NCBI RefSeq assembly: GCF_009828925.2
Contig: NZ_WUTY02000002.1
Span: forward strand, 248,001-312,000
Source of the DNA: Methylicorpusculum oleiharenae
Lineage (GTDB): Bacteria > Pseudomonadota > Gammaproteobacteria > Methylococcales > Methylomonadaceae
Length of the DNA: 64,000 bases
Direction: 5' to 3'
The stretch's first letter is position 1; each line of letters begins with the position of its first letter. Positions 5,363 to 52,195 of this stretch are shown here, piece by piece. A model generated the notes under the pieces. The model searched no databases. It had not been told where the DNA came from and saw only the letters and a program-made list of their open reading frames with translations. Made by a program: the position numbers and the translations under genes.

Positions 5363-5375
5363 AGATGAGGTTGTT

Positions 5376-5936: not shown

Positions 5937-6018
5937 GGTTGCAAACTTGGAATATAAAATACAGAGCCTTCAGTTCGTAGGAAGGGTATACGAATGAAAA
6001 TATCTATCAGAGTGAAAA

Positions 6019-16246: not shown

Positions 16247-16285
16247 GGGGTACGACAACAATTCCTTCATTTTTAGGCCATAAGG
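16247..16285 (-). repeat. dispersed 39-bp repeat, copy 1
   Basis: The reverse complement of this segment matches 46773-46811 with about two substitutions. Part of the shared sequence is AAAAATGAAGGAAT followed by GTTGTCGTACCCC. It lies in a 1.2-kb stretch with no intact gene. See the second copy. Confidence 0.8.
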
Positions 16286-31963: not shown

Positions 31964-31994
31964 TGTAGGGGTTCTAAGCCCAAACCCTCGTAAT
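31964..31994 (+). repeat. island-edge repeat, copy A1
   Basis: Contains the shared core GCCCAAACCCTCG followed by an AATTTT-type tract (here one base differs). Inverted partner at 32211-32241; related copies at 52016-52053 and 52160-52195. Confidence 0.8.
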
Positions 31995-32020
31995 TTTTTT
32001 AATCATTTTAAATCAATTCG

Positions 32021-32293
32021 TTAGTCAAATTTTATACCGGCTAAAATCTCATCAAAGTCGATTGGACGCACGGTGACTTTGTCTACAGCCTCCCAGCGAA
32101 AAGCCATTTGACTGAGTGTTTTCTCGCATAATCGTTGTCCAGTAGTGATTAGGGAATCCTTCGGCGTGATGTTAAACGCCTGATCGGGGGTGTAAGCCCA
32201 AGCCGCCGAAAATTCCGAGGGTTTGGGCTTTGGACCCCTACAAAGCGAAGCAGAAAAAAGGTTATCAATCTGTTCTTGTAGCTCGTTAATCAA
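32021..32293 (-). CDS. hypothetical protein, 90 aa
   Basis: A 90-residue protein with no recognised domain; residues about 18-28 (CRGPKPKPSEF) are encoded by repeat copy A2 itself. It could be a genuine small gene or only an open frame across the repeat. ATG at 32293. It is the only minus-strand frame at the left edge of the island. Confidence 0.35.
   Translation of the reverse strand: MINELQEQIDNLFSASLCRGPKPKPSEFSAAWAYTPDQAFNITPKDSLITTGQRLCEKTLSQMAFRWEAVDKVTVRPIDFDEILAGIKFD
32211..32241 (-). repeat. island-edge repeat, copy A2
   Basis: Inverted relative to A1: AAAATTCCGAGGGTTTGGGC then a GACCCCTACA end. A second partial, plus-oriented copy just before it (32185-32218, GCCCAAGCC) makes this site a hairpin by itself. 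Confidence 0.8.
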
Positions 32294-32378
32294 TGCTATT
32301 CAAACACGCAAGTACAGCTTAGCGTAATATTTTTTCCGAATTCTGCCACTACCTCTTTAGCAATTCCAAAGATTGTCC

Positions 32379-32406
32379 TTGACAGAGTGTACTAATATTA
32401 TAGATA
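32379..32406 (+). promoter_or_regulatory. candidate sigma-70 promoter of the AAA ATPase gene
   Basis: TTGACA at 32379-32384 followed after 16 bases by TAGATA at 32401-32406. The ribosome binding site AGTAGG and the ATG at 32446 follow. The -35 is perfect; the -10 is only fair. Confidence 0.5.
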
Positions 32407-32445
32407 TTATGTTTTTATCGTAAATTCTATAAAGTAGGTATATAA

Positions 32446-33642
32446 ATGGACCCAATACGTAATCCATTTGCCCCTGGTGCTGGTAGCCCGCCTCCTGAGC
32501 TTGCTGGTCGTGACAGTGTTCGCCAAAAAATGAAACTTTGTCTTGGACGCCTGCGCATTGGCCGTCCTGCAAAAAGCGTCATGCTTGTGGGTCTACGTGG
32601 AGTTGGTAAAACGGTACTTTTGGACCGAATGATGAAAGATGCCGAAGCCGACGGTATGATAACCATTCGCATTGAAGCACCAGAAGGACGCTCATTGCCG
32701 GCCATGTTGGCACCACAATTACGTTTGGCGTTGCTTAGATTAAATCGCATCGCTAAGGCGGCAGACTACGCAGTTCGTGGCCTAAAGGCATTGGCTGGAT
32801 TTGCCAGTAAGCTAAAGGTAACATTCAATGACATAGAGGTTGGATTTGATTTCGATCCGGAGCCAGGCCTTGCTGATAATGGTGATCTTGAAGGCGACCT
32901 GACAATGCTGTTAGAGCAAGTAGGTTTGGCGGCAAAAGCGGCGGAAACGGTTGTAGCCATTTACATCGATGAATTGCAATATGTAGAAGAAGCGCAGTTG
33001 GCAGCTCTCATTTCGGCGTTACACCGCTGTTCGCAGAATCAATTACCACTTACTGTTATTGGCGCTGGACTCCCACAACTGCGAGGCAAAATGGGCGATG
33101 CCAAGTCATATTCCGAGCGACTGTTTGATTTTCCTGAGATTGGCCCGTTAAACGCTGCTGATGCAACTGAGGCCATCGTTAAGCCTATCTTGAGCGAGGG
33201 AGCAGAAGTTGACGCAAGTGCGGTAGATCTGATTATTGCGGAAACAAAGGGGTATCCCTATTTCCTTCAGGAATGGGGAAAACATGCATGGGATATTGCG
33301 ACGCAGAGTCCAATTGCCAATAGTGACATTGAGCGTGCATCCAAGGAAGCCATCGCAACTTTGGATGAAAGTTTTTTCCGTGTTCGGTTTGATCGTCTCA
33401 CACCAAAGGAAAAACAATACCTGCGTGCCATGGCTGAATTGGGCCCAGGTCCACACAGATCAGGCGATATTGCTGCCGAGCTGGCCCGTGAAACCTCATC
33501 ACTGGGACCGATCCGCAGCAGTTTAATTGTGAAGGGAATGATTTGGAGCCCTACACATGGTGATACAGCGTTTACTGTGCCTTTGTTCGATGAATTTATG
33601 AAAAGAATCGTACCGGGCAAAGACTGGACAAAAACCGAATAA
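32446..33642 (+). CDS. AAA-family ATP-binding protein (ORC/AAA_16-like)
   Basis: A 398-residue ATPase. Walker A GLRGVGKTVLL is near residue 48, Walker B VAIYIDELQYV near 168, and a sensor-like IGAGLPQL near 204. The last 100 residues (LTPKEKQYLRAMAELG...) look like a winged helix. The fold resembles the ORC/AAA_16 group. It is the first plus-strand gene of the island, 132 bases before the DUF499 gene, so it may be cotranscribed or separate. Similar proteins occur widely; function unknown, possibly an accessory to the following defence operon. Confidence 0.75.
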   Translation: MDPIRNPFAPGAGSPPPELAGRDSVRQKMKLCLGRLRIGRPAKSVMLVGLRGVGKTVLLDRMMKDAEADGMITIRIEAPEGRSLPAMLAPQLRLALLRLNRIAKAADYAVRGLKALAGFASKLKVTFNDIEVGFDFDPEPGLADNGDLEGDLTMLLEQVGLAAKAAETVVAIYIDELQYVEEAQLAALISALHRCSQNQLPLTVIGAGLPQLRGKMGDAKSYSERLFDFPEIGPLNAADATEAIVKPILSEGAEVDASAVDLIIAETKGYPYFLQEWGKHAWDIATQSPIANSDIERASKEAIATLDESFFRVRFDRLTPKEKQYLRAMAELGPGPHRSGDIAAELARETSSLGPIRSSLIVKGMIWSPTHGDTAFTVPLFDEFMKRIVPGKDWTKTE

Positions 33643-33774
33643 TAGATGGTTGCTAATCAACAATATGATTCTAATTCTAGTTTATTTAATAGCAATTAAT
33701 TAAATAGCAAGGGATTTATAAAAAATGAATGCAGCAAATTTAATAGTGATTTGGAAAGAAAGCAGGAGCAATAA

Positions 33775-36700
33775 ATGAGAACCATCCGAAGCGCCTGTAA
33801 GCTTCAGCCAAAAGCCCTCGATATTAATGTTGGTGATCAGATAGAGCAGCTCGACCAGATCATTAATGAAACCAATGGTCAGGAGTATTTCAATAAAACC
33901 TTCATCACTGACGGGATGAAGTCTCTTTTGACAAAAGGTATGTCCCGCCTGGCCGGGAAATCGAATGACACTGTTTTTCACCTGAAACAAGCAATGGGGG
34001 GTGGTAAAACTCATTTAATGGTGGGTTTTGGGCTTCTCGCTAAAGATCAGGCTCTTCGTTCCAACCAGATTGGGGTAATGCCATATCAATCCGATTTTGG
34101 AACTGCAAAGATTGCTGCGTTCAATGGCAGAAATAATCCACCTACCTATTTATGGGGAGAAATAGCCCGTCAACTAGGTAAGGAATCTCTATTCCGCGAG
34201 TATTGGGAAGCAGGAGCGAAAGCGCCTGATGAAAGAGCTTGGATGCAAATTTTCGATGGTGATACCCCCATCTTAATTTTACTCGATGAGATGCCACCCT
34301 ATTTCCATTATTACAGTACGCAGGTTTTAGGTAATGGTACAGTTGCGGACGTGATCACCCGAGCTTTTTCCAATATGCTCACCGCTGCGCAGAAGAAAAA
34401 GAACGTCTGTATCGTTGTTTCCGACTTGGAAGCGGCTTACGACACCGGTGGTAAATTGATTCAACGCGCACTTGATGATGCAACTCAGGAGTTAGGCAGA
34501 GCGGAAGTCAGTATTACGCCAGTAAACCTTGAATCAAATGAAATCTATGAAATCCTGAGAAAGCGCTTATTCCTGTCTCTTCCTGATAATAGTGAAATCT
34601 CAGATATTGCCGGGGTGTATGCAAGCCGTCTTGCCGAGGCTGCAAGAGCCAGAACAGTTGAACGTAGTGCAGAAGCCCTTGCCACTGAAATTGAATCGAC
34701 CTATCCATTTCACCCCAGCTTTAGAAGTATCGTTGCTCTTTTTAAGGACAATGAAAAATTTAAGCAAACCCGTGGCTTAATGGAGCTTGTTTCCCGATTA
34801 CTGAAATCAGTCTGGGAAAGTAATGAGGATGTTTATCTAATTGGTGCTCAGCATTTTGATCTGTCGATAGCGGATGTCCGGGAAAAACTCGCGGATATTT
34901 CTGAAATGCGTGATGTTATAGCTAGAGACCTGTGGGACTCATCCGACAGCGCTCATGCACAGATCATCGATATAGATAACGGCAATAACTACGCCAAGCA
35001 AGTAGGAACGTTGCTACTAACAGCGAGCTTATCAACGGCCGTAAATTCTGTAAAAGGCCTCTCAGAAAGCGAGATGCTTGAATGTCTGATTGATCCCATC
35101 CGTCAGGCCAGTGATTTTCGTGCCGCTTTTACGGAGCTTCACAAAGCAGCCTGGTATCTTCACCAGACACAGGAGGGAAGAAGCTATTTCGACCGTCAGG
35201 AGAACCTGACCAAAAAACTGCAAGGTTATGCAGATAAGGCACCACAGAACAAAGTCGATGAACTGATACGTCATCGTTTAGACGAGATGTATAAGCCAAC
35301 AACAAAAGAGGCTTATGATCGAGTACTTCCGCTACCTGAAATGGACGAGGCCGAAGCAGTGCTTAAAACTACACGGGCTTTACTCATTATCAGTCCTGAC
35401 GGTAAAGCACCGCCAGAAGTGGTGAAACGCTTTTTTGGTAGCTTGATTAATAAAAACAACATTCTCGTTCTTTCCGGCGAGAAATCATCGATGGCAAGCG
35501 TTGATAAGGCGGCAAGGCATGTCTACGCGGTGACGAAGACGGATAGCGAGATCAATGCATCGCATCCTCAACGAAAAGAACTCGATGAAAAGAAAGCGCA
35601 GTACGAACAGGACTTTCAAACGACTGTCCTTTCAGTGTTTGATAAGCTTATGTTTCCTGGTAAAAACGGTGACGAAGATGTGCTCCGCACTAAAGCTCTG
35701 GACAGCACCTATCCTTCCAACGAACACTATAACGGCGAACGTCAGATTATCAAAACCCTCACTTCAGATCCTATTAAACTTTACACCCAAATTCCCGAAA
35801 ACTTTGATGCCCTCAGAGCGCGATCTGAACAGTTGCTGTTTGGGGCACAGGACGAGGCTAGAAAAACAGACCTGCTGGATAAAATGAAACAGAAAACTCA
35901 AATGCCTTGGCTTCCCTCCAAAGGATTTGATCAGCTTGCACAGGAAGCTTTTCAAAGAGGTATTTGGGAAGATTTGGGTAATGGCTATATCACTAAAAAA
36001 CCCAAGGCAAAACAGACCGAGGTTTTAGTTTTTCCAGATAGTACGCCCGATGACAACGGAAAAGTGCGTCTAAAAATTGACGTGGTCAATGCCGGAAACA
36101 GCCCCAAAATTCACTATCAGGAAGACGGTGAAGTGACGACTAAGTCCCCCATTCTGACTGACAATGTCCTGCTCACCAAGGCATTGCGAGTGCAGTTTAT
36201 TGCCATTGATCCTACCGAAAAAAATCAGACGGGTAATGCTACAACCTGGACAAATGAATTAACCATCAGAAATCGCTTTGATGAGGTTGCTCGTAAAGTG
36301 GAGCTTTTTGTCGCTCCTAAGGGAACTATCCGCTATACCCTTGATGGCTCAGAGGCAAGAAATGGTATTGATTACACAGGGGCAATAGAAATTGGCGACA
36401 ATGCAGCTACAGTCTATGTGTTTGCAGAATGCGAGGGTATCGAAGCAAAACGTAACTTTTCCTTTGCGGAATCTGGCTCAAAAGAGATTCTGATTATTAA
36501 GGAAAAACCAGCGCAGCTATACAGCCCTACGCCCAAGCGACTTGATAACGCCGCAAAAACCTATGAAGGTCTTAAACTCGCCAAAGAGAAAAACATCACT
36601 TTTGAACAGGTGACGCTTATTATCGGCTCTGCCCCTAAGGTAATCCACCTATCCCTAGGTGAGATGAAAATTGATGCTGATTTTATTGAAAAGGCACTGT

Positions 36701-36843
36701 CACATCTTCAAACCCTGGTTACACCAGAGGCACCGGTGGCGATGCAGTTTAAAAAAGCCAACACCTTTACGGGACATGATTTGGAGCAATTCGCCAAGGC
36801 GTTGGGTATAGAACTCATCAATGATGAGGTCATTCAAGAATGA
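33775..36843 (+). CDS. DUF499 ATPase of an Hma-like anti-phage system
   Basis: A 1022-residue protein with Walker A QAMGGGKTHL (about residue 73) and Walker B LILLDEMPPYF (about 166), the pattern of the DUF499 ATPases annotated as anti-phage-associated. The C-terminal third is beta-rich with a chitobiase-like repeat (IRYTLDGSEARNGIDYTGAI near 850). It would supply ATP-driven function in the defence complex. AGGAG lies nine bases before the ATG. The stop overlaps the next gene's ATG by four bases. Confidence 0.85.
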   Translation: MRTIRSACKLQPKALDINVGDQIEQLDQIINETNGQEYFNKTFITDGMKSLLTKGMSRLAGKSNDTVFHLKQAMGGGKTHLMVGFGLLAKDQALRSNQIGVMPYQSDFGTAKIAAFNGRNNPPTYLWGEIARQLGKESLFREYWEAGAKAPDERAWMQIFDGDTPILILLDEMPPYFHYYSTQVLGNGTVADVITRAFSNMLTAAQKKKNVCIVVSDLEAAYDTGGKLIQRALDDATQELGRAEVSITPVNLESNEIYEILRKRLFLSLPDNSEISDIAGVYASRLAEAARARTVERSAEALATEIESTYPFHPSFRSIVALFKDNEKFKQTRGLMELVSRLLKSVWESNEDVYLIGAQHFDLSIADVREKLADISEMRDVIARDLWDSSDSAHAQIIDIDNGNNYAKQVGTLLLTASLSTAVNSVKGLSESEMLECLIDPIRQASDFRAAFTELHKAAWYLHQTQEGRSYFDRQENLTKKLQGYADKAPQNKVDELIRHRLDEMYKPTTKEAYDRVLPLPEMDEAEAVLKTTRALLIISPDGKAPPEVVKRFFGSLINKNNILVLSGEKSSMASVDKAARHVYAVTKTDSEINASHPQRKELDEKKAQYEQDFQTTVLSVFDKLMFPGKNGDEDVLRTKALDSTYPSNEHYNGERQIIKTLTSDPIKLYTQIPENFDALRARSEQLLFGAQDEARKTDLLDKMKQKTQMPWLPSKGFDQLAQEAFQRGIWEDLGNGYITKKPKAKQTEVLVFPDSTPDDNGKVRLKIDVVNAGNSPKIHYQEDGEVTTKSPILTDNVLLTKALRVQFIAIDPTEKNQTGNATTWTNELTIRNRFDEVARKVELFVAPKGTIRYTLDGSEARNGIDYTGAIEIGDNAATVYVFAECEGIEAKRNFSFAESGSKEILIIKEKPAQLYSPTPKRLDNAAKTYEGLKLAKEKNITFEQVTLIIGSAPKVIHLSLGEMKIDADFIEKALSHLQTLVTPEAPVAMQFKKANTFTGHDLEQFAKALGIELINDEVIQE

Positions 36844-37433
36844 TGCAAACCACAGATTTTGGTGCGCCATCCGGATTTGGAGCACATTGCTTTTATGTGG
36901 AAATTCCGGCCATTCCTCGATACGCGGTCCGCATTTATGAGGACTATGGCTTTGATGGGGATGAGAGCCGTCGTGAGACGACAGAGTGTCGCGTAATTCT
37001 TGCTCGGGAACTCTGGACCAAAATTCGGGATGATGCTCGCCGTGATTTTAATGCCCGCCTGAAGGCGAAAAAGCAGAGCACTGGATCATGGAATACTGGC
37101 ACGGTTAAGCTTGATCGGTTTTTAGGTCGTGAGCTTTGCGTTTTAGCCTGGGCGGCAGAACATGCAACTCCTCAGGAGTGTTTAATCATCTGTCAAAAGT
37201 GGCTTGCCCTGCGTCCGGAAGAACGCTGGTGGTTTTACTCAAAGACTGCTGCCGAAGCCAGGCTGGCAGATCAGTCCGAGCGGGGCTGGCGTAAGGCACT
37301 TTATTGTGCTCTCTCCGATGGAATCAGCATAAAACTTGAGCAGAAAATCAAACCTAAAGGTTTAAAAACAAAAGATGTTAATGAAGAGGCTCTGCCATCC
37401 CTCTTTGATTTTATTGAAATTGGGGAAATATAA
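36840..37433 (+). CDS. DUF3780 protein of the Hma-like system
   Basis: A 197-residue protein matching DUF3780: GFGAHCFYVEIPA at the start, RETTECRVILARELWTKI, LGRELCVLAWAAEH and the LRPEERWWFYSKTAAEAR stretch. DUF3780 has no known activity and is found almost only with DUF499 and DUF1156 genes. The ATGA overlap with the DUF499 gene and the TAATG overlap with the next gene show a tight operon. Confidence 0.88.
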   Translation: MMQTTDFGAPSGFGAHCFYVEIPAIPRYAVRIYEDYGFDGDESRRETTECRVILARELWTKIRDDARRDFNARLKAKKQSTGSWNTGTVKLDRFLGRELCVLAWAAEHATPQECLIICQKWLALRPEERWWFYSKTAAEARLADQSERGWRKALYCALSDGISIKLEQKIKPKGLKTKDVNEEALPSLFDFIEIGEI

Positions 37434-40270
37434 TGGCTTTGCAACCCTTTGAATGGAAAGATAAACCTGCACTAATTGAACACCTGTTTCCTGTTCAGAA
37501 AATTTCGGCGGAAAGTTTCAAGGAGCAGATGGCGGGTTCTGGTAAAACTTTGACAGCTTTGGGTAGTTACTGGAAGGGACGAAAACCACTTATTCTTAAT
37601 AAAGCCTGTATTCTTGGTGCGTTGCTTCCTGCAACTGATGATCCACTCAAAGACCTTCAGATTTTCGAGTTATTGATGGGTATGGACAGTCAAACGATGC
37701 AAAAGCGCATCGAAGCGACTTTGCCGGCCTCAAAGCAGGCCATCGTTAGTGAATATTTGGTATTGCCCTACAACGAGCAGGTTAGAAAGGCAAAGCGCCC
37801 TGAAGAGCTTCCTGATTCGCTTTTTTCTCATGCCTGGTCAAAGGTAAATGCTCACCTTGGTACTTCAGCATCATCGTTCTCTGAACTGTTGGAACAAATC
37901 GGCATAGCTCGCTTTGGTCACCGGCCAAGAGTTGCCGATGTTTTTAGCGGTAGTGGGCAAATTCCCTTTGAAGCAGCACGGCTAGGCTGCGATGTTTATG
38001 CCTCCGATCTGAATCCGATTGCCTGTATGCTCACTTGGGGTGGTTTTAACATCGTCGGCGCAAGTGCGGAGAAACGCATTGCAATCGACAATGCGCAAAA
38101 AGAACTGGCTAAAAAAATACAAACTGAGGTTGATACCTTAGAAATTGAAACCGATGGCAAAGGGTGGCGTGCAAAGGTATATCTCTACTGCCTTGAGGTT
38201 CATTGTCCAGAAAGTGGCTGGAAAGTTCCTCTGCTACCTAGCCTTATTATTAGTAAAGGTTATAAGGTAGTGGCACGACTTGTACCTATTCCAGTTGAGA
38301 AACGGTATGACATTGAAATAGTTTATGTTGATACGGATGAGCAAGTTGAAAATGCAAAGGTTGGAACGGTACAGGATGGCGATATTGTTCATTCACCCAA
38401 TGGAATAATAGTGCATCGTGTCAGCATAAATACTATTCGAGGCGATTACAAAGACGGCAAAGAAAATAAAAACCGCCTGAGATTATGGGAAAAATCAGAT
38501 TTCATTCCCCGCCCAGATGATATTTTTCAAGAGCGACTTTATTGCGTGCAATGGATGAAGCAAAAGTCAGGAGGTAAGAATTTTGACTATGAATTCCGCA
38601 CCGTTACTGCTGCTGATTTAAAACGTGAACAAATCGTTATTGATTACGTTCAAACGCATTTAGCGGATTGGCAGGAAAAAGGTTTTGTACCTGACATGAT
38701 GATTGAAAAAGGCGATGAAACTGAACGGCTTTATCGTGAACGTGGTTGGTCGCATTGGCACCATTTGTTTAATGCACGGCAGTTGCTATTCGTTGGACTA
38801 TCAAATCAATCTCAAATTGCTGTCAATAAATTTGCGATTACTGCGCTCGTAGATAGATGTTCACGTTTATGTAGATGGGATAACAGTGCATACAAAGGCG
38901 GCGGCGGAAACTCTGCAAACGTATTTGATAATCAAGCATTAAATACTGTTTGGAATTATGGATGTAGAAGTTTTTTATATGTTGCCGATTATATTCAACC
39001 AAATTTCAAATCATTTTCTGTTACATCAAAAACAACTGTTAATTCTCACACCGCTTCAAACCTCGAAACAGAAAACGACATTTACATCACCGACCCGCCT
39101 TATGGTGACGCGGTGAAATATGAAGAAATCACCGAGTTTTTTATTGCTTGGCTCCGAAAAAATCCGCCTGCTGAATTTTCTCATTGGACGTGGGATAGTC
39201 GTCGTTCGCTTGCGATCAAGGGCGAAGACGAAGGCTTTCGACAAGGCATGGTGGCAGCTTACCGTAAAATGACTGAACTGATGCCCGAAAACGGTATTCA
39301 GGTATTGATGTTTACCCATCAAAGTGGCTCTATCTGGGCTGACATGGCAAACATCATTTGGGCAAGTGGATTGCAAGTGACTGCGGCGTGGTATGTAGTC
39401 ACAGAAGCAGACTCAGCACTTCGGCAAGGTGCCAATGTGACAGGAACCATTATGCTGGTACTACGTAAACGCCATCAACATCTTGAAACCTTCCGCGATG
39501 ACCTTGGCTGGGAGATTGAGGAAGCTGTAAAAGAGCAGATGGAATCCCTAGTAGGTCTTGATAAATCAGTAAGAGCACAAGGTTCAGAAGGGCTTTATAC
39601 CGATGCCGATCTGCAGATGGCGGGCTATGCGGCGGCACTAAAAGTGCTCACAGCTTACTCGGTCATTGACGGTAAAAATATGGTGGTTGAAGCTGAAGCC
39701 CCCCGCCAAAAAGGAAAAAAGACCTTTGTTGACGAGTTGATAGATTTTGCCGTGCTAACAGCGGTGCAGTTTCTGGTGCCAGTGGGCTTTGAGAAGAGTG
39801 AATGGCAGAAGCTTGCTGCTGTGGAACGGTTTTACCTAAAAATGGCAGAGATGGAACATCAAGGCAGTCAGTCTCTTGATAACTATCAGAATTTTGCCAA
39901 AGCTTTCAAAATACACCACTTTGATCAACTGATGAGTGATTCCTCAAAGGCAAACTCAGCGCGACTGAAACTTTCCACCGAGTTCAAGTCATCAATGATG
40001 ACAGGGGATGCGGAGATTGCATCAACTCCGCTACGGGCGTTGTTATATGCCATGTATGAGCTCACCAAAGAGGTTGAAGTTGATGATGTACTGCTGCATT
40101 TAATGGACAATTGCCCTAACTATCTACCCACCAAGCCACTACTGGCGAAAATGGCTGACTACCTTGCAGAAAAGCGGGAATGCCTGAAGCCTACTAAAAC
40201 ATTTGATCCTAAGGGCGAGGCAAGTGCCGCCCGGGTGATGGCGGAAGCCATTCGTAACCAGAAGCTTTAA
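37433..40270 (+). CDS. DUF1156 DNA methyltransferase of the Hma-like system
   Basis: A 945-residue SAM-dependent methyltransferase. An N-terminal DUF1156 region is followed by motif I (DVFSGSGQIPFEAA near residue 168) and, far downstream, motif IV (ITDPPYGD near 553), which indicates amino-methylation of adenine or cytosine. The large gap between motifs hosts an insertion. It should mark host DNA so that the system can tell it from phage DNA. The start overlaps the DUF3780 stop by one base and GGGG precedes it. Confidence 0.88.
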   Translation: MALQPFEWKDKPALIEHLFPVQKISAESFKEQMAGSGKTLTALGSYWKGRKPLILNKACILGALLPATDDPLKDLQIFELLMGMDSQTMQKRIEATLPASKQAIVSEYLVLPYNEQVRKAKRPEELPDSLFSHAWSKVNAHLGTSASSFSELLEQIGIARFGHRPRVADVFSGSGQIPFEAARLGCDVYASDLNPIACMLTWGGFNIVGASAEKRIAIDNAQKELAKKIQTEVDTLEIETDGKGWRAKVYLYCLEVHCPESGWKVPLLPSLIISKGYKVVARLVPIPVEKRYDIEIVYVDTDEQVENAKVGTVQDGDIVHSPNGIIVHRVSINTIRGDYKDGKENKNRLRLWEKSDFIPRPDDIFQERLYCVQWMKQKSGGKNFDYEFRTVTAADLKREQIVIDYVQTHLADWQEKGFVPDMMIEKGDETERLYRERGWSHWHHLFNARQLLFVGLSNQSQIAVNKFAITALVDRCSRLCRWDNSAYKGGGGNSANVFDNQALNTVWNYGCRSFLYVADYIQPNFKSFSVTSKTTVNSHTASNLETENDIYITDPPYGDAVKYEEITEFFIAWLRKNPPAEFSHWTWDSRRSLAIKGEDEGFRQGMVAAYRKMTELMPENGIQVLMFTHQSGSIWADMANIIWASGLQVTAAWYVVTEADSALRQGANVTGTIMLVLRKRHQHLETFRDDLGWEIEEAVKEQMESLVGLDKSVRAQGSEGLYTDADLQMAGYAAALKVLTAYSVIDGKNMVVEAEAPRQKGKKTFVDELIDFAVLTAVQFLVPVGFEKSEWQKLAAVERFYLKMAEMEHQGSQSLDNYQNFAKAFKIHHFDQLMSDSSKANSARLKLSTEFKSSMMTGDAEIASTPLRALLYAMYELTKEVEVDDVLLHLMDNCPNYLPTKPLLAKMADYLAEKRECLKPTKTFDPKGEASAARVMAEAIRNQKL

Positions 40271-40273
40271 TTT

Positions 40274-42991: not shown

Positions 42992-43279
42992 GGGTAGCAA
43001 GGTAATAGTCACTGAACAGCAGTGTTGATGTGTCCCGAATGAGATGCTCTTCTCTTACATGATATTGTGTTGTGCGGCATGAGATTAATGATCGTAGGTC
43101 CGAATTGCACCAAATATTACTTGCTCTTGAAGCAATATATTAAGACGACGTTTGGGATCTACTAAACACAGCTGTCAGCATAGAATTATAACATTTGATT
43201 AATCCAAATTTGCCATACTGCGCGACTGACTCTTGCCGACGCTCATGAGCGGAAAAGTAACGGTTAAATTATAAAAGGA
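42992..43279. other. intergenic region upstream of the reverse transcriptase gene
   Basis: A 288-base gap between the Hma-like operon and the RT gene. An AAGG ribosome binding site is just before the RT ATG. No structured RNA is obvious, though some defence RTs carry an upstream RNA, so transcripts here would be worth checking. Confidence 0.45.
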
Positions 43280-46200
43280 ATGACGATGGGCTATCAGGCA
43301 AAATTTTCCGGCTGGCAAAATATTACCATTGAAGACATGCTGGTAGCCTATCGCAAGGCCAAGGCAGATTGTTTTTTTGAAAATACCTTCCCGACAGCCA
43401 TTAAGTTTGCTGAGTATGAGCAAGGCTTATTGGTCAAGCTAAATGCGTTGCTAAACAACCTGCAAACAGATAATGGCTTTACGGCAAATAAGGATTATTT
43501 GGGTGAGTTTCGCCTACTGCCTAAAAAACTTTCTTTTAAGCCAAAATCCACTGCAAGTAATGGACATGTTCACTTTTCGAACCCAAAAAGAACATTTGAA
43601 CATTTGACCCAAAATAATGATTTATTGCCCGAATTTCGTATTGTTGGTGACTTTCCAGTGGAGAGCCATATTATCTCGGCACTCTGGATCAATATGATTG
43701 GCCAGAAGTTTGATGCTTTTTTGGACGACAGCTGCTACGGCGCAAGACTAAGACGGATTCGAGATGAAGATACACTTGATGAAAATGCGCCTAAACCATT
43801 TCACTTAAGCTCAATCGGATCATTTACGCCGTATTTATATCCCTATCAAAAATGGCGTAACGATGGATTAAAAGCCATTCGCGGTGAGTTAGAGAAAGAA
43901 CGCGATGTGATTGCGGTGTCGCTGGATTTAAAAAGCTACTACCACTTTATCGATCCAATGGCTCTGGCGTTGCCGGGGTTGCATCAAGAACTTGGGCTAA
44001 CCTTAACAGAAGAAGAGCAGGGGTTTACGCTTGAGTTGGCTAAGTTTCTTAGTCACTGGTCAGAAAAAGCAAATGCTTTTGCCCAGAAGTCCATCCAGGG
44101 CAAATCGAATGTCTACGGTGGGCTTGTTATTGGCCTAACGGTTAGTCGTATTATTTCTAATGTGCTTTTGCACCACTGGGACCGCCTAATCAAGCAAAAA
44201 ATCGCACCGATCCACTATGGTCGTTATGTGGATGACATTTTTTTGGTGCTTCTTGATACTGGAACAATCACCAACAGTGATGGCTTTATGCAATTTTTAC
44301 AAGAGCGCTTGGGAAAAGATTGCATCTTTCATGACGCTGACAGCAGCAAAAGTAAAAAAGACACCCCCAGCCCCAAGCTATGGCAAATCCAGCAAGGCAA
44401 GGAGTTACAGGGCGATTCGCTGATAAAGTTGCAATCAGATAAACAGAAACTGTTTTTACTTCAAGGTCGAGCCGGGCTTGATCTACTCGATAGTATTGAA
44501 AAAGAGATTTACGAGCTGTCCAGTGAACATCGTCTGATGCCTTCGCCGGATCAACTTGAAGATTCAACGGCTGCGCGCGTTCTTTCTGCGGCCGGTTCTG
44601 TAGGCGAAAATGCCGATACACTGCGCCGGGCTGATGGTCTTACTATTCGCCGTTTAAGCTGGTCTATGCAATTACGTCATGTTGAAACCTTGGCACGTGA
44701 TTTACCTGCACACGAATGGTCAAAACAGCGCGAAGAGTTTTATCAATTTGCTTATAACCATATTCTTCGACCAGACAGCCTATTTGCCCATTTTAACTAT
44801 CTACCTCGCTTGCTAGGTTTTGCTATTAGTTTGAATGAATGGCAACAGGCTGAACAAATCGTATTGCGAGCATTTGATTCTATTGTTCAGCTGCAAGCAG
44901 CAATACCTAATGGCAAAAATATAACTGTAAATGGTGCTGATGTAGAAGCTGGTAATGACTTGTGGCGTTATATAAAAGGCACATTAACTTGGTTATTTAT
45001 CGATGCCGCTACTCGCTATTACGATCCTGATAAATTGATGTCCGATAAGCGGACAAGAAAAGAAAAGCGACTAGCCGAACTGTTCTTGAAAGGCATTTTT
45101 CAAGGTCTTGTTGAAGTTGAACAATGGCTTAATTTAACGTTTGGATTCGAAGAGTTTCATGAAAAGGCTCCTTTAGTTGCTATGGCCGATTTAGCCAAAG
45201 AGCCTTACAAACGGATACTTAAAAGTCGCTCAGCTGGCAACCTGATAAAAAGGCGGGATGGCAAAAAAGAAAGCAAAATTATGAAGTTGTTTAATTCGGC
45301 TCAACTGGTTGATACTGCAGTGCTTAAAGGTTTCTTGAAAGCTACTAATACGTCTCGACTTTTTGCTATTGAATCTGGTTCTCGTAAGGGAGAAAGCTAC
45401 TTACCTTATTTGTTTCCGACACGCCCACTCACCGCATTGGAAATTTCAGAACTTGCGCCGGAATGTGTTGGGCTACCCCAATGTGATGGCAAAATTTGCA
45501 AACAAAAACCATCAGTTATTTGGGCCAAATATACTCAAGCGATTCGGGGAGTATGGATAAAACCCACGTTACTGGCCGCCGACCAAGATGGTGAAGAACA
45601 CAAAAAAAGCTCAAAGGCAGTAAAGTATTTACGGATCGGGACGGAACGGAAGCAAAAAATTATCGTTGCTTTAACCAATCTAAAAACCGAAGACTCCGAT
45701 TGGGCAGCCATGGCTTGCAATAAGTCCAACCTTTCTGCAGATCGATATAGCCGAATTACAAAATTAATAGAGCAAATAATAAAGTTAAAACCCAAACCTG
45801 ATTATGCTCTTTTTCCGGAACTATCTCTTCCTTTGAGGTGGGTAGATACTATTGCCTACTACCTTGCTAAATCAGGTATAAGTTTGATTGCAGGTACGGA
45901 ATATCGACATTTCGATAAAAATGAGCTGCTGAGTGAAGTATGTCTTGTACTTACTGATAATCGGCTCGGTTTTCCGGCAGCAGTCAGAATTTGGCAGCCT
46001 AAACTTCAGCCGGCAGTTGGCGAGGACAAAGAGCTGACCTCTAAGTTTGGCAAGACTTGGGCGGTTTCCAAAATTAAAGGGAAACAGTCTAAGCCCGTTT
46101 ACATCCACAATAATACACACTTTGGGGTTATGGTTTGCTCTGAGCTACAAAATAGCAAAGCTAGAGTGAAATTTCAGGGTGAAGTCGATGCATTGATGGT

Positions 46201-46525
46201 ACTGAGTTGGAATCAGGATTTAGAAACTTTTTCATCTCTTATCGAATCTGCCGCGCTTGATGTGCATGCTTACACTATTTTGGTTAACAACCGTAAGTAT
46301 GGCGACAGTCGAGTGAGGTCTCCGTCCAAAGAGTCGTTTATGCGTGATTTGGCAAGGGTTCGGGGGGGAGACAATGATTTCGTTATTGCTGCCACTCTCG
46401 ATATAGATGAATTGCGAGCTTTTCAAAGTCGAGCCAAACGTTGGCCTCAAGATGACGATAAATTTAAACCTGTTCCAGAAGGTTTCAGACTAGCCAAAGG
46501 CCGCCGACGATTACCACCAAGATGA
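43280..46525 (+). CDS. DRT type 1 (UG1) reverse transcriptase fused to nitrilase domain
   Basis: A 1081-residue RT-nitrilase fusion as found in defence-associated reverse transcriptase type 1. RT motif A (IAVSLDLKSYYHF) is near residue 211, a motif B-like GLVIGLTVSRIISNV near 276, and the catalytic motif C (YVDD) near 315. After a long helical linker comes a nitrilase domain (about 835-1060) with the expected glutamate (LFPELSLPL), a lysine in the AVSKIKG segment and the cysteine (GVMVCSEL). Both catalytic sets look intact. In known DRT1 the fusion defends against phages through DNA synthesis of unknown template. Start ATG 43280, AAGGA upstream. Confidence 0.93.
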   Translation: MTMGYQAKFSGWQNITIEDMLVAYRKAKADCFFENTFPTAIKFAEYEQGLLVKLNALLNNLQTDNGFTANKDYLGEFRLLPKKLSFKPKSTASNGHVHFSNPKRTFEHLTQNNDLLPEFRIVGDFPVESHIISALWINMIGQKFDAFLDDSCYGARLRRIRDEDTLDENAPKPFHLSSIGSFTPYLYPYQKWRNDGLKAIRGELEKERDVIAVSLDLKSYYHFIDPMALALPGLHQELGLTLTEEEQGFTLELAKFLSHWSEKANAFAQKSIQGKSNVYGGLVIGLTVSRIISNVLLHHWDRLIKQKIAPIHYGRYVDDIFLVLLDTGTITNSDGFMQFLQERLGKDCIFHDADSSKSKKDTPSPKLWQIQQGKELQGDSLIKLQSDKQKLFLLQGRAGLDLLDSIEKEIYELSSEHRLMPSPDQLEDSTAARVLSAAGSVGENADTLRRADGLTIRRLSWSMQLRHVETLARDLPAHEWSKQREEFYQFAYNHILRPDSLFAHFNYLPRLLGFAISLNEWQQAEQIVLRAFDSIVQLQAAIPNGKNITVNGADVEAGNDLWRYIKGTLTWLFIDAATRYYDPDKLMSDKRTRKEKRLAELFLKGIFQGLVEVEQWLNLTFGFEEFHEKAPLVAMADLAKEPYKRILKSRSAGNLIKRRDGKKESKIMKLFNSAQLVDTAVLKGFLKATNTSRLFAIESGSRKGESYLPYLFPTRPLTALEISELAPECVGLPQCDGKICKQKPSVIWAKYTQAIRGVWIKPTLLAADQDGEEHKKSSKAVKYLRIGTERKQKIIVALTNLKTEDSDWAAMACNKSNLSADRYSRITKLIEQIIKLKPKPDYALFPELSLPLRWVDTIAYYLAKSGISLIAGTEYRHFDKNELLSEVCLVLTDNRLGFPAAVRIWQPKLQPAVGEDKELTSKFGKTWAVSKIKGKQSKPVYIHNNTHFGVMVCSELQNSKARVKFQGEVDALMVLSWNQDLETFSSLIESAALDVHAYTILVNNRKYGDSRVRSPSKESFMRDLARVRGGDNDFVIAATLDIDELRAFQSRAKRWPQDDDKFKPVPEGFRLAKGRRRLPPR

Positions 46526-46641
46526 ACGAAGCGTTTCGAATTGAACTACAAGCCTGTGATGTATCGCGTAACCGTTTGCGTTACACCGCATTGGGTGCTA
46601 ATCAACAAAAGGCTCTAAAGTTTCACGAGATTTATCCGTGA
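46522..46641 (+). CDS. 39-aa small ORF coupled to the DRT1 gene
   Basis: A 39-residue frame whose ATG overlaps the DRT1 stop (ATGA), implying coupled translation. It begins MNEAFRIELQACDVSRNRLR and ends at TGA 46639-46641. Not recognised; it may be a truncated gene or a genuine short partner protein. A strong hairpin follows. Confidence 0.35.
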   Translation: MNEAFRIELQACDVSRNRLRYTALGANQQKALKFHEIYP

Positions 46642-46644
46642 ATT

Positions 46645-46691
46645 GTAAGCGTCCATCCGAGCCACCTATTCATGCTCGACTGGACGCTTAC
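46645..46691. repeat. strong imperfect hairpin downstream of DRT1
   Basis: GTAAGCGTCCA (46645-46655) pairs perfectly with TGGACGCTTAC (46681-46691). After a two-base internal mismatch the arm continues with CGAGC against GCTCG, leaving an 11-base loop. No T-run follows, so it is not a classic terminator. It may act as a transcript end, a REP-like element or part of an RNA. Confidence 0.6.
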
Positions 46692-46772
46692 TATAGAGGC
46701 AGATTTTTTTCTGTTGACGATCCAGAACGGAGTTGGTGATAGTCACTTGAGGTTAAAATTACATCACTGCGA

Positions 46773-46811
46773 CCTTATGGCCCAAAAATGAAGGAATCGT
46801 TGTCGTACCCC
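46773..46811 (+). repeat. dispersed 39-bp repeat, copy 2
   Basis: Matches the reverse complement of 16247-16285 with about two substitutions. It lies upstream of the STAND gene, 30 kb from the other copy. The two copies are inverted to each other and lie in otherwise non-coding DNA. Confidence 0.8.
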
Positions 46812-46909
46812 TACTATTACCCAATTCGCACGAATCTTTACGGTCACCGGGTTTAACCTTAATAACCAAAGTTCTAAATACCAAATGATTTTCTTTTAGG
46901 AATTTTTCG

Positions 46910-49900
46910 ATGATTGAGACTCAGGATTTTGAAGTAATGGACTTAACAAAAGTCTGTGGTGTGTTTCCCCAACTAGGTGAACCCAATATTCTGCGGGACA
47001 ATATGATTATGACCGTTGAAGGGATGCTAAATAACAGTGAGGTTATTATTGTTGAAGGTGCAGATGGAGCAGGAAAAACTACACTATTAGCGCAATTTGC
47101 TCGCGCATTTCCAGAGCAAACATTTTGTCTTTTTATGCGTTCAAGTAGTCGTTGGGCGTATGATTCGCAGAATCTTACTCGTGATTTATGCGACCAAATT
47201 GGTTGGGCACTTTATAAAGAAGATTATCTTGAGAAAGATAAGGAAGTTGAGGCCAAGCAACTATTGAGGAAACGAGTGCATGAACTCCAGCGCAAAGCTA
47301 ATCTGGAGAGGAAGACATATTACTTTGTTGTGGACGGCTTACATGAAATTCCAGAAGAGGGATTCGGCGAGAAAGAAGTTATATTAGACCTTATTCCGTT
47401 TGGTATTCCTCGCTTTCGTTTTATTTTATCTGGTTCAATCGACTGTTTTCTAAACCGTCTAAAAAACTCTCAAATTCGCCCATTCCAATTACCGGGATTT
47501 ACATTAGAAGAAACTCGGCAATTCTTCGATGGATACATTAATGAGCCATCAAACCTGCAAACAATATTCAAGGTAAGCAAAGGAATTCCCGGCCATTTGG
47601 CGAGTATGCGCCGTTTGCTTGAATCTGGTGCTAAGCAGGAGGAAGATCTTCTCGATGAGTTGCCGGAAAGCTTGCCAGAATTGTTTGAAATGGAATGGCA
47701 AGTGGTAGAAAACAAAGATAACGGATTGCTGCGAAATGCTCTTGCAATTCTTGCCTTTGACCAACGTCGTCATTCGATAAATTCACTTGCACTGCTCTGT
47801 AACATTGATATAGACACTCTAAAAAATAAGTTGGCCTGTTGTACTTTTGTAGAGCAAAAGGGCGCTGAAGGAGATATAGAGTTTATTGGTGATGTGTTTA
47901 GTCGTTATGCCTCAAAACGTTTATCTAATTTACGAAAAGGCACTTTAGATAAAATAATTTCCGATTTGTTCGACAATCCTGAAAGCTCTGAGGCCATTAC
48001 CCACTTGCCGGATCTTTATCATACAGCTGGACGTTACGAGGAGCTATTAACCTATTTATCCCCGCAACATATTGGAAAACTGATTGATTGCAGTGAGTCG
48101 TGGGCACCATTGCGTCAGAAAGCTGAATTAGGGGTAAACACCGCACTTGAGCAGGAGCGGGATGGAGACCTACTGAGATTTTCCCTGCAACGCGCCACAA
48201 TTACTAGTATGGAAAATTCAGAGACCTGGCGTTCAGAGATTGAAGCATATGTTGCTCTTGAGGATTTTTCAACGGCATATGCATTAGTACAGCGAGTGGC
48301 CACAATAGCAGATCGCCTCCATTTAATGGCGGTCATTGCCCGAATGAAAAAGAGCAAGTCATTACCAATTGAGTTGGAACTAAAGGATCAAATTCAGCAG
48401 TTGTATGCACAATTAGACCGCAGCAATTTGGGTGACAGAGGTATTGAAATAGCCTCAGACTTGCTTTACACGCAACCAGAACTAGCCATTGATTTAGTTC
48501 AGGATTGCATGCGCAAATCAGATTCTGATCATGAAGGAAGGCTTGATCTTGCTCTGGCAAATTTATCTTTTAAAGCTTTGATCGAAAAACAGGATGGAGT
48601 TGATGGAATGGAATCAACCCACCAGGCTTTTCAGTCAAAGATTAAGAATCCAAATGTCCAAAAATTTATAGATAAGATTGGAATCTTCTTCGGTGGCTAT
48701 ACTGCGGATGGAGTAATCACCGAAGTGAGTAATTGGGAAAAAGTCTCAGACAGGATGTACGCATTGAGGGCTTGGACAATGGCTAATGCCGAAAGAGATG
48801 ATGCTGTAATTGTTGTTGAATATGCGATAAACACGATCCTTCAAACCACAACCTACACTGCAAATGCAAGAGTCTATCAGGAACTAGTTTCTCCATTGGT
48901 TTGCATCGCTGATCTTGAAAAGGTAAAAACAATAATTGCAAGGTTAGACGGGCTAAGAGAGCCAATTAAAGCGTCAGGGCCGACTTTAGAATATGTCAAA
49001 CTCCAAGTAACTTTAGCGGAAGCTGAATCACGGTACGATAGTCGTATTGCCTCTGATCGGTTATTAGAAGTTTATTTCTATATCGATGAACTTCTGGAGC
49101 CAGGAACAAAGCTTGCAACACTAGCAGTTTTGGCTTATGGACTAAAAATAATTAATGCCGATAATCAGCCCGAGCTACATAGTGGCCTTCACGCTTCAGT
49201 AGTTAAGGGCCTAGAGTCAGTCGTTGATGAGATATTAACAAAAACTGCAGATCATTACGAAGCAGTGCAGTCCGGGATTGGAGCTTTGTCAAGGAGTGAT
49301 TCTAAAGTTGCTTTGGGTGTAATTACCAAGCTAAATACAATCGAACGTCGTGAGGCGGCTTTAGTTAAGCTAATTGAAGCGACTGCGTCTGAACAGCCCT
49401 GCAATGAGAGTTTTTCCGCAATCGTAGAAGCCTATAACAGAATTAAAACTATTCCTCTGCGCGCAAAAGCAACGCGTGCCGCTTTACAGGGATTGTCAAA
49501 ACAAAAGAAAAATTTAACTTCATTTTTAACTCAAATATATCCTTTTAGGCAATGGGTGTATGAGATTCCAGACGCTGAAGAAAAATGCCAAGCCTTGTGT
49601 GTCTTTTTAGAGCTCATTTTTGAACATCAAAACAGTCTTCCCATAGGGTTCTTATCTGAATTACAGGAAGAATTGCGTAGAACCTGGAATTCAATAGACT
49701 CTGGATGGGCGAGAGTCGACAGTGGTTTCAAGATCGTCTCGAGAATGGCAGATAGCTTCCCAGAAATTAGTCATGAATTTTTGAAGCAGACAGAGGAAGC
49801 AAGGAAAACGATAATTTTGGACTCACCAGATACCGCCAATACTTATTTTCTGTGCGTCCAGCTGGCTATTCGCTGCTTTGCAGGGCTATTGAAACGTAAA

Positions 49901-51877
49901 CTCTACAACGAAAAAGATGATTTTGATGATCTCAGAGACCTTATTGAGAAGATTCCGGCTGCGCATGCTCGCGTGATTGCTTGGAGCGAATTGGCGCTGA
50001 GAGTTTTTATGGCTCATGACATTAATAATTGCCAAAAGATTGTCAATGAACAAATTCGTCCGCTGCTTGATACTGAACAGATCAGAGATAGAGAAGCTCT
50101 TTGGGATGCAACCATTTATGCCGCACCAGTATTACATTGCGCTCATTCCACTTCAGCCATACAAATAATTAGCCAAATACCTAACCCTTATAGAGATGAT
50201 GCCTATAGTTGGATATGTACATTTCTAATTAGTAAACGCTTGCCCATGGAGATTTACGATTCCGCAAGCAAACCAGAAAAAAAGGTTAGCTATGAAGATT
50301 TTTTAGATATTTGCAATTTGTTGGAGCAAATCGAAAACGACAGTGTTATTTGCTGGCATATTAAATGGCTCGTGGACGGGTTACATGCCAATTTTCGCAA
50401 TTCATTTAATAATACTCAGATAGCCGATATTCAAGGGAAATTGCTTAATTTAGCCGCGACGAAGTTTCAAACTACTGATGGCATTCAGCATGAGGGGTAT
50501 AAAATTTTGGTCGAAGCTCAAATTGCGAGGTTGGATCGTCAAAAAAATCCTTGGAGTAATTTAGCAATTAGGGCAAATACGCTCCCCAATCTGGCAGATA
50601 AGGCTTTTGTATTGATGCAAGTAGCCGCTGCGATGCCAAATAAACAAAAGACATTGGCGCTTGAACTGATGCAGGATGCCAAGCTACTCATCCCCGATAT
50701 TCCTTTCTTTGAGGACCGTTGTAGTCACTATGAAACATTAGCCAAATTAAGTGTCGACATTGATAGGCGCTTTAGTAAAGATTGTTTACGTCAAGCATGG
50801 AGTGAAACCAACCCATTAAATGCTGCTGAACTCCCCAAGATTCGAAAACGCATTATTGATTTCGCTCACCGGCTCGATCCAGAATTTGCTGCGACTTTGG
50901 CATCAGAAACCGATGACGATCCTGGTAGGGATTTTGCGAGAAATCAAGTTAATCGAAGGTTGCAAACGCTTAATCTAAGAGAGCAAGCTGCAAATGGAGG
51001 AAGAACGGCAATATCAAAGCTGACTCAAGATAAAAAACAAAAAATTGAAATTACAAAGATGTTGTTATCGGGTCTTAATTCTGATCGAGCAGGGACAGTG
51101 CACATTGAGGAAACACGGCAAGATATTAAAGATGCGAGTTATATGGATTTGCAGGATGCTTATACTATTTTTTCATGGGCTATTGAGAATTCAGTGCGTC
51201 GCTATTCTGATACTGACCAAGCAAACACGATCCTTCGCCCACTTTACGAGGCTGTTCACCTTTCATCAGAACTCGCTTTCAGAATTGCTTCCCGAATTCG
51301 TTCAGTTACAGACCAAGGCATTGATATTGCGCGACGCTCTGATGGTTCATCTGAAAGCGGGCTAATTCGTCCAGGAGAACGGAACAAAGCATTGGATATG
51401 CTCAAAAAGTGGGTAGTGAATGCGACCGGATTTATCAAGATCACCGATCCATATTTCGGCCTAGAAGAGCTGGAACTTGTTAAATTAATTCGAGGTGAGA
51501 AGCCTGATATTCCAGTTTTCATTCTTGCAGCTCGAAAGCATCAACAGGATTTACAAATACAAAAACCCTGGGAAGAAAGCTATCAGTTACATTGGCGCTT
51601 TCATGTTTCGGATGCTGATCCAGGAGATGTAAGGATTTTTATGATTGGTAAGGGGATTAGCGGTAGCCATCCAATTCATGATCGTTGGTGGTTGTCAGAG
51701 CAAAGCGGGCTTCGCCTTGGAACTTCGGCAAATAGTCTTGGCATGCGATTATCCGAAATGTCGTCTGTTACTGAATCAGAGATACCACATATGCTTGCTG
51801 AAGTGGATAAATATATCTCGGGGAGCGTTCGCACCATTGAGAATCAACGTCTCGAACATTCTTCTTTCTATCTGTAA
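46910..51877 (+). CDS. STAND-type NTPase with helical repeats and PLD-like C-terminal domain, 1655 aa
   Basis: A very large STAND-like protein. Walker A EGADGAGKTTLL is near residue 48 and Walker B-like YYFVVDGLHEI near 141, then an RFRFILSGS sensor. Residues about 350-1450 are nearly all helical, a TPR- or HEAT-like sensing array. The last ~150 residues (KALDMLKKWVVNATGFIKIT, then DPYFG) resemble a PLD-fold phosphodiesterase ending in IHDRWWLSEQSGLRLGTSAN, a degenerate HxK motif (H-D-R). In STAND defence proteins the sensor binds a phage factor and a C-terminal effector is switched on; here that is inference. A TTTTAGGA site precedes the ATG. It closes the defence island. Confidence 0.72.
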   Translation: MIETQDFEVMDLTKVCGVFPQLGEPNILRDNMIMTVEGMLNNSEVIIVEGADGAGKTTLLAQFARAFPEQTFCLFMRSSSRWAYDSQNLTRDLCDQIGWALYKEDYLEKDKEVEAKQLLRKRVHELQRKANLERKTYYFVVDGLHEIPEEGFGEKEVILDLIPFGIPRFRFILSGSIDCFLNRLKNSQIRPFQLPGFTLEETRQFFDGYINEPSNLQTIFKVSKGIPGHLASMRRLLESGAKQEEDLLDELPESLPELFEMEWQVVENKDNGLLRNALAILAFDQRRHSINSLALLCNIDIDTLKNKLACCTFVEQKGAEGDIEFIGDVFSRYASKRLSNLRKGTLDKIISDLFDNPESSEAITHLPDLYHTAGRYEELLTYLSPQHIGKLIDCSESWAPLRQKAELGVNTALEQERDGDLLRFSLQRATITSMENSETWRSEIEAYVALEDFSTAYALVQRVATIADRLHLMAVIARMKKSKSLPIELELKDQIQQLYAQLDRSNLGDRGIEIASDLLYTQPELAIDLVQDCMRKSDSDHEGRLDLALANLSFKALIEKQDGVDGMESTHQAFQSKIKNPNVQKFIDKIGIFFGGYTADGVITEVSNWEKVSDRMYALRAWTMANAERDDAVIVVEYAINTILQTTTYTANARVYQELVSPLVCIADLEKVKTIIARLDGLREPIKASGPTLEYVKLQVTLAEAESRYDSRIASDRLLEVYFYIDELLEPGTKLATLAVLAYGLKIINADNQPELHSGLHASVVKGLESVVDEILTKTADHYEAVQSGIGALSRSDSKVALGVITKLNTIERREAALVKLIEATASEQPCNESFSAIVEAYNRIKTIPLRAKATRAALQGLSKQKKNLTSFLTQIYPFRQWVYEIPDAEEKCQALCVFLELIFEHQNSLPIGFLSELQEELRRTWNSIDSGWARVDSGFKIVSRMADSFPEISHEFLKQTEEARKTIILDSPDTANTYFLCVQLAIRCFAGLLKRKLYNEKDDFDDLRDLIEKIPAAHARVIAWSELALRVFMAHDINNCQKIVNEQIRPLLDTEQIRDREALWDATIYAAPVLHCAHSTSAIQIISQIPNPYRDDAYSWICTFLISKRLPMEIYDSASKPEKKVSYEDFLDICNLLEQIENDSVICWHIKWLVDGLHANFRNSFNNTQIADIQGKLLNLAATKFQTTDGIQHEGYKILVEAQIARLDRQKNPWSNLAIRANTLPNLADKAFVLMQVAAAMPNKQKTLALELMQDAKLLIPDIPFFEDRCSHYETLAKLSVDIDRRFSKDCLRQAWSETNPLNAAELPKIRKRIIDFAHRLDPEFAATLASETDDDPGRDFARNQVNRRLQTLNLREQAANGGRTAISKLTQDKKQKIEITKMLLSGLNSDRAGTVHIEETRQDIKDASYMDLQDAYTIFSWAIENSVRRYSDTDQANTILRPLYEAVHLSSELAFRIASRIRSVTDQGIDIARRSDGSSESGLIRPGERNKALDMLKKWVVNATGFIKITDPYFGLEELELVKLIRGEKPDIPVFILAARKHQQDLQIQKPWEESYQLHWRFHVSDADPGDVRIFMIGKGISGSHPIHDRWWLSEQSGLRLGTSANSLGMRLSEMSSVTESEIPHMLAEVDKYISGSVRTIENQRLEHSSFYL

Positions 51878-52015
51878 AACTTTTTCTAATTCGGGTGGTA
51901 ATAAAGTGCATTAACCGTTGTTTTTGTATCCAAAAATAGTGCAGCAATCGAATTTCTGGGATTTCGGCTTAGAACCCCGGTTACGGTTTTTTTCCGATAT
52001 CCTGATTGAACAAGA

Positions 52016-52053
52016 GTAAGGGGTTGTTCGCCCAAACCCTCGGAATTTTCGAT
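52016..52053 (+). repeat. island-edge repeat, copy B1
   Basis: Contains GCCCAAACCCTCGGAATTTT preceded by GGGGTTGTTC. Same type as A1/A2 at the left edge; inverted partner at 52160-52195. Confidence 0.8.
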
Positions 52054-52159
52054 TTCGTCTGAAAATGTCGTATGAAATATAGAAGAAATGATGAAACAAC
52101 TCTATCTCGGATTGATCTTAATCACAGCAGAAATTTGTTAACATATTGTTTTTTATTGA

Positions 52160-52195
52160 TTAAAAAATTCCGAGGGTTTGGGCGTAGACCCCCAT
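52160..52195 (-). repeat. island-edge repeat, copy B2
   Basis: Reads AATTCCGAGGGTTTGGGC then a GACCCCC end. In reverse complement it matches A1 almost throughout, including the T-rich tail and AATC, so A1 and B2 are inverted repeats about 20 kb apart. Confidence 0.8.

Follow-up and report, generated by a model that had tools for sequence, protein, structure and literature searches.

Two miniature elements with Tn3-family ends flank a 20-kb defense gene cluster in Methylicorpusculum oleiharenae

Does a defense gene cluster that is framed by paired repeats move as a single element? The question is raised by a 64,000-nucleotide stretch of Methylicorpusculum oleiharenae (Methylomonadaceae; RefSeq assembly GCF_009828925.2, contig NZ_WUTY02000002.1, forward-strand positions 248,001–312,000), hereafter the window, in which about 20 kb of defense-type genes (positions 31,964–52,195) lie between two inverted pairs of one repeat. 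A preliminary description, made from the DNA letters alone, took these paired ends as element boundaries or recombination sites of a defense island. In the reading that we consider quite likely, the four repeats are the 38-bp inverted repeats (IRs) of two miniature elements, and the cluster between them is a set of separately acquired systems and not the cargo of one element. Unmarked coordinates refer to the window.

The genome consists of three contigs, C1 (5.24 Mb), C2 (535 kb; the window is C2:248001–312000) and C3 (70 kb). The size of C2 and the presence of a ParB gene suggest a plasmid-like replicon, on which transposon debris is abundant. We scanned the window for the repeat core, GCCCAAACCCTCGGAATTTT, allowing up to three mismatches, and obtained four copies, against none in 100 shuffled controls. 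As first described, they form inverted pairs at both ends, at 31978–31997 (+, one mismatch) and 32209–32228 (−) on the left and at 52030–52049 (+) and 52164–52183 (−) on the right. The left pair belongs to element A (31968–32238, +; 271 bp), a Tn3-derived miniature element. Its outer IR, A1 (31968–32005, +), and inner IR, A2 (32201–32238, −), enclose a piece of the 3′ end of the transposase gene tnpA followed by an internal tnpA piece, and its last 30 bases form the second, inverted end. The right pair belongs to element B (52020–52193, −; 174 bp), delimited by the end scan and by alignment, with an inner IR, B1 (52020–52057, +), and an outer IR, B2 (52156–52193, −), of the same family as those of A. 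The right boundary of B could be placed independently because similarity to plasmid CP157006 (Methylomonas AM2-LC) begins at 52194. The similarity between A and B is limited to their ends, and matches between B and the other loci compared are likewise confined to the ends of B. A1 and A2 agree at 28 of 38 positions and B1 and B2 at 29 of 38. The outermost copies, A1 and B2, had been noted to match in reverse complement, and they do, at 31 of 38 positions without gaps and over about 63 bp at 82%.

A transposon with these ends is present in a relative (G015). It is a 16.3-kb Tn3-family element whose ends are one and three mismatches from the consensus, whose flanks (TTTAA/TTTAA) form an exact 5-bp target duplication, and which encodes a TnpA (PF01526, E = 3e-104) and a resolvase (PF00239, E = 7.9e-39). 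At a partial G015 locus, the transposase matched NF033527 with E = 1.5e-126 and 424 bits, below the curated cut-off of 500, a score that covers only its C-terminal half, the rest lying outside that locus. Bases 1–96 of A are 90% identical to the transposon end plus the 3′ end of tnpA, and bases 99–219 are 86% identical to a separate, internal piece of the same tnpA. By this two-piece alignment, A is an internal-deletion derivative of a G015-like Tn3 element, formed by loss of the interior; for B, the ends alone match. A close cognate TnpA for the A/B ends was not found in the M. oleiharenae genome, where the best candidate has 37% identity, and the end scan placed none of the A/B-type IRs beside the copy of that candidate on C2. 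An early candidate, a miniature element of the TA-target (IS630) type, was dropped after the 38-bp ends beginning with GGGG and the G015 TnpA came to light. We also noted that the G015 transposon (locus L109, G015 C7:86001–106000) holds a passenger open reading frame (ORF) of about 2,477 codons, counted stop to stop, and further ORFs.

The ends are not private to the cluster. A whole-genome search with the core (up to two mismatches) gave two further matches outside the window, an inverted pair at C2:146630/146861. This pair belongs to a copy of element A (C2:146620–146890), 96% identical, in inverted orientation and 133 kb away. Scanning all of C2 and C3 for the 38-base end with up to 13 mismatches returned nine matches on C2 and one on C3, and none in one shuffled and one reversed C2. 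On C1, neither of two shorter patterns, the core and the outermost 20 bases of the end, matched anything, and BLAST of element A with short flanks gave a single weak 24-base match (E = 0.85). Across 101 genomes, own genome included, the core was present with up to one mismatch in seven and the outer 20 bases in 15, with no match for the backward control of either pattern. No match was found when plasmid records were searched with element A. The search that the preliminary description proposed, in the genome and its relatives, thus turned up related ends elsewhere on C2, on C3 and in relatives, at odds with a repeat specific to one island.

Further transposon ends lie inside the bracket. Between the last gene of the cluster and element B is a divergent solo IR of the A/B family (51941–51978, −; 13 of 38 mismatches to the consensus). 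Farther in, between the reverse transcriptase and STAND genes described below, 46692–46811 (−) is a remnant of one end of another Tn3-type transposon, with its IR at 46774–46811. The remnant is 87% identical to one end of a 7.6-kb segment (C2:40557–48179) that has both ends of this second type, a transposase frame of 1001 codons and unmatched flanks. It is likewise 87% identical to a part of plasmid MEALZ_p whose neighbors include genes for a recombinase and a DUF4158 protein. As a separate observation, solo ends of the second type at 16247–16284 (+) and 46774–46811 (−) face each other 30.6 kb apart, with unmatched 5-bp flanks (AGCCT/TACTA).

Elements A and B resemble the Tn3-derived inverted-repeat miniature elements (TIMEs), which are short (50–500 bp), transposase-free and bounded by Tn3-type ends of about 38 bp, roughly three-quarters identical to each other. 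In the 2014 TIME paper (PMC4133298), the two ends of TIME1–4 agree at 29–30 of 38 positions. A and B differ from those elements in that their sequence is distinct, they reside in Methylococcales, and 5-bp duplications are absent at both.

Between the pairs, seven ORFs are 150 aa or longer, all on the plus strand as first described; shorter minus-strand ORFs (102–117 aa) overlap them, and we took these as mechanical. Pfam and PADLOC searches of these seven genes (PADLOC with residues 1–999 only of the last, very long protein) detected neither a recombinase nor a transposase domain, in keeping with the earlier remark that no recombinase was seen inside. The first gene (32446–33642, +) encodes an AAA_16 ATPase of 398 aa (PF13191, E = 1.6e-17; a weak PADLOC match to mad8, E = 2.5e-5). 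It is followed by a four-gene operon, which matches its PADLOC models almost end to end: a DUF499 AAA+ ATPase of the Hma-like, Type-2 BREX (bacteriophage exclusion)-related kind (33775–36843, +; PADLOC DUF499, 1896 bits), a DUF3780 protein that is a marker of this system (36840–37433, +; PF12635, E = 2.1e-70), a DUF1156 DNA methyltransferase (37433–40270, +; NCBIfam NF042963, 1309 bits, above its cut-off, and PADLOC), and a PLD (HKD)-helicase effector (40274–42991, +; PADLOC PLD_Helicase, 1733 bits; PF13091 and PF00271). The Type-2, DUF499-centered BREX-related system is described as one operon with a DUF499 ATPase, a standalone DUF3780 protein, an N6-methyltransferase and an HKD-helicase (PMC12839542). 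The cluster operon has the same gene content and family matches, and an antiphage role is predicted for it.

The next gene (43280–46525, +) encodes a UG5-nitrilase reverse transcriptase (RT), of the PADLOC group of defense-associated reverse transcriptases (DRTs), matching RT_UG5-nitrilase near full length (residues 3–1080, 1038 bits). The preliminary label DRT1 did not hold: the Drt1a model reached only 75 bits and aligned best to C-terminal residues 836–1064, so that the protein is not Drt1a proper. The last gene (46910–51877, +) encodes a large STAND/NACHT-type NTPase of 1655 aa with weak AAA_22 and NACHT matches, whose residues 1–999 matched no PADLOC family. Four plasmid records encode full-length relatives of 22–28% identity, and three of these records come from genera of the Bacillota. 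Its C-terminus gave only chance-level matches to PDB sequences and Pfam lent no support for a PLD domain there, so the "PLD" part of the earlier STAND-PLD label found no support; the labels AAA ATPase, Hma-like operon and STAND stood. By family match, the operon and the RT are of known kinds, and the AAA and STAND proteins match general families only.

Two side observations concern these genes. G199 and G239 have homologs of the AAA gene that are 91% identical; in both, the match is interrupted by a single TAG and lies on a short contig without other genes of the cluster. In G001 (C74/C120; loci L169 and L168) and in G156 (C7/C2; L166 and L167), contig ends divide the UG5-nitrilase RT gene in two; the ends in G001 show CAGCAATTCTCA as an inverted copy and share CATTTCAAC, which by eye look like an insertion sequence in the RT gene.

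If the cluster moved as one unit, its modules should be found together elsewhere, as the preliminary description implied. We compared 35 related loci (498 kb in total), comprising 16 helicase loci and 19 loci from relatives (nine operon, five RT and five AAA loci, drawn respectively from nine of the 27 other genomes with DUF3780, three of eight with the RT and five of seven with the AAA gene). More than one of the four modules (operon, AAA, RT and STAND) was present in none of the 35 (E ≤ 1e-5, identity filter off), and this pattern of separate modules was consistent across loci. In searches of 201 genomes, own genome included, DUF3780 was found in 28, the RT in nine, the AAA gene in eight and the STAND gene in one, with no STAND relative (E ≤ 1e-10) in the 200 other genomes, all drawn from the same family. 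Two relatives hold two modules apart: in G011 the operon and the RT lie ~1.56 Mb from each other on one contig, and in G205 DUF3780 and the AAA gene are on different contigs. The failure to find the modules together in the 35 loci, many of them on short contigs, and the second type of Tn3 end inside the cluster speak for modules that were not the cargo of one element. The two outcomes that the preliminary description had named as speaking against its own proposal, copies scattered at unrelated loci and inside genes that do not move together, are both largely what we found.

The edges of the elements bear on how they arrived. No target duplication flanks A (ATGTA/TACAA), B (AGTAA/ATTTA) or the copy of A (AATAA/TACTC). 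Adding element D and pairs on G005 C30 and G049 C199 (the right flank of the latter read by hand), matching 5-bp flanks were seen at none of six miniature pairs; two pair-like loci, L024 and L201, stand outside this comparison. Element D is a third miniature element of 372 bp, present at C2:33630–34001 and in the congener G002 (C57:45435–45806) with 99.7% identity. Since its unmatched flanks are the same 5 bp in both genomes, missing duplications may simply be old, and we do not regard them as decisive against transposition. A target duplication of 5–6 bp is a hallmark of transposition, but TIMEs are defined without it; the 2014 TIME paper reports one at only four database copies.

An uninterrupted site that joins the two flanks, as the preliminary description suggested looking for, was not found. 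G002 carries the left flank (C2:270636–279961, ~9.3 kb) at 95%–96% identity, with no match for ~1.6 kb of it (C2:276022–277608). Past the point where this similarity ends, the next 3,034 bp of G002 show 12 short matches to the M. oleiharenae genome (E ≤ 0.001), none beside the block. Because nothing but short matches follows the left flank there, we rejected G002 as an empty site and regard it as a similarity break. Upstream of its match to the right flank, CP157006 has no similarity to the sequence left of A1. Neither G002 nor CP157006 joins the two flanks, none of the 101 genomes has them side by side, and we found no clean empty site. The repeats are element ends, and both outermost ones coincide with breaks in similarity to relatives; they bound each of two miniature elements, and a reading as the two ends of one island is not supported.

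Several explanations compete with separate acquisition, and the one that survives best is homologous recombination among dispersed copies, such as an inversion between A and its inverted copy, which would have reshuffled the flanks and left the bracket as a by-product. We regard it as possible though on balance unlikely. An inverted copy of A does exist on the same contig, flanks were matched at none of the six pairs, and the 2014 TIME paper considers it highly probable that copies recombined at some database TIMEs whose two sides are parts of different genes. Undoing a single inversion between A and its copy by hand (AATAA, TACTC, ATGTA, TACAA), however, leaves the flanks still unmatched, and the flanks of D, unmatched and identical in the two congeners, allow age as the reason for the lost duplications.

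A number of observations weigh against separate acquisition, and some of them point to a composite. A1 and B2 are the best match among the six end pairs, and the outermost flanks, which adjoin A1 on its left and B2 on its right, agree at four of five positions (ATGTA vs. ATTTA), an inexact duplication (a match of 4/5 or better has a chance probability of 0.017, which rises to 0.058 if the sites are AT-rich). Similarity breaks at both outermost ends: that to G002 stops at 31961, 7 bp before A1, and that to CP157006 starts with the first base past B2. Nor do A, B and the copy of A have duplications of their own that would mark a separate insertion of each. Many of the 35 loci, at 3.4–22.7 kb each, are cut by contig ends, which makes each single absence of a module weak. 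One of the 35, L034 on a Methylococcaceae contig, has the 38-base end (up to 13 mismatches). There, the region 1–3 kb downstream of the helicase contains end-like matches (13–15 mismatches) as well as 40 bp that share 92.5% identity with bases 211–250 of A. It is the single locus elsewhere that ties such ends to the operon, and it counts for a composite; another helicase locus, L039, has one end match at 15 mismatches.

The composite in question would be a TIME-COMP, a composite non-autonomous transposon in which the entire 20.2-kb block was moved by way of A1 and B2 with a TnpA supplied in trans, the cluster being mobile now or formerly. The geometry is as published, with two inverted miniature elements around a transposase-free interior of unrelated genes (here 32239–52019), and outer duplications are not universal in published examples: TIME-COMPs bounded by integron mobilization units (IMUs) lack them and one was mobilized even so. 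Yet the outer flanks are inexact, A and B are unlike each other outside their ends, whereas the TIMEs of TIME-COMP1 and TIME-COMP2 are one base apart or identical (2014 TIME table, PMC4133298), and the largest TIME-COMP in the published table consulted spans 11.4 kb. No relative seen has the two outer flanks as neighbors, the interior modules do not occur together in the 35 loci, the own genome yielded no close cognate TnpA, and the block contains both the divergent end at 51941–51978 and the second Tn3-type end. Movement of the block as a TIME-COMP is improbable on this evidence, and a still less probable form of it is that A and B were once the ends of a 20.2-kb composite carrying the Type-2 BREX-related system, the UG5-nitrilase RT and the STAND gene, with its helper on another replicon.

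An integrative element or genomic island with the repeats as attachment sites for a site-specific recombinase is scarcely credible and was rejected because the ends are inverted Tn3 repeats: paired repeats do flank a one-strand gene block, but they are inverted, begin with GGGG, bound the target-duplicated Tn3 transposon of G015 and recur at other loci, and Pfam and PADLOC found no integrase domain in the block, nor is there a tRNA gene in the window.

How, under separate acquisition, might the arrangement have come about? A and B would be non-autonomous derivatives of a Methylococcales Tn3-family transposon, able to move only with the help, in trans, of a TnpA that matches their ends. Such an enzyme would nick the 3′ ends and join them to the target by replicative transposition, after which the cointegrate would be resolved. 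The helper TnpA of an autonomous relative can work in trans on TIMEs and TIME-COMPs (PMC13367494, Gomi and Yano 2026), and by analogy mobilization of A and B by a related TnpA is predicted from their ends. A helper would insert the small elements and could also mobilize the sequence between two of them. A and B may have inserted separately on the debris-rich 535-kb replicon, or recombination between copies may have moved them beside the defense genes. The genes themselves would be a stack of known systems, each acquired independently, and we infer that the cluster accumulated stepwise.

Other features of the surroundings were noted in passing. Left of the bracket, a Prok-E2 family D protein (25251–26030) and a ThiF-domain protein (9279–10043, −) are encoded ~15 kb apart, and an RRXRR-HNH protein (Pfam) is encoded at 28020–29306 (−); plasmid records with similar DNA annotate the latter as IscB. 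Within L034, at 4128–6232, an ORF (5103–5729) that by eye is serine resolvase-like lies between two end-like sequences, one at 4967 (+) and the other at 6187 (−); together they are possibly a resolvase-bearing miniature element.

In a narrow search of the open-access literature, we found no report that links TIME-COMPs with defense systems or Tn3-family miniature elements with defense islands. The present case provides a description, in methanotrophs, of a sequence family of miniature elements together with a transposon that has the same ends. Being devoid of genes, miniature derivatives of Tn3 readily escape annotation, and a defense cluster can look bracketed without being demonstrated as one mobile unit. 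If the bracket does move, the assembly of defense islands would be tied to miniature elements mobilized in trans.

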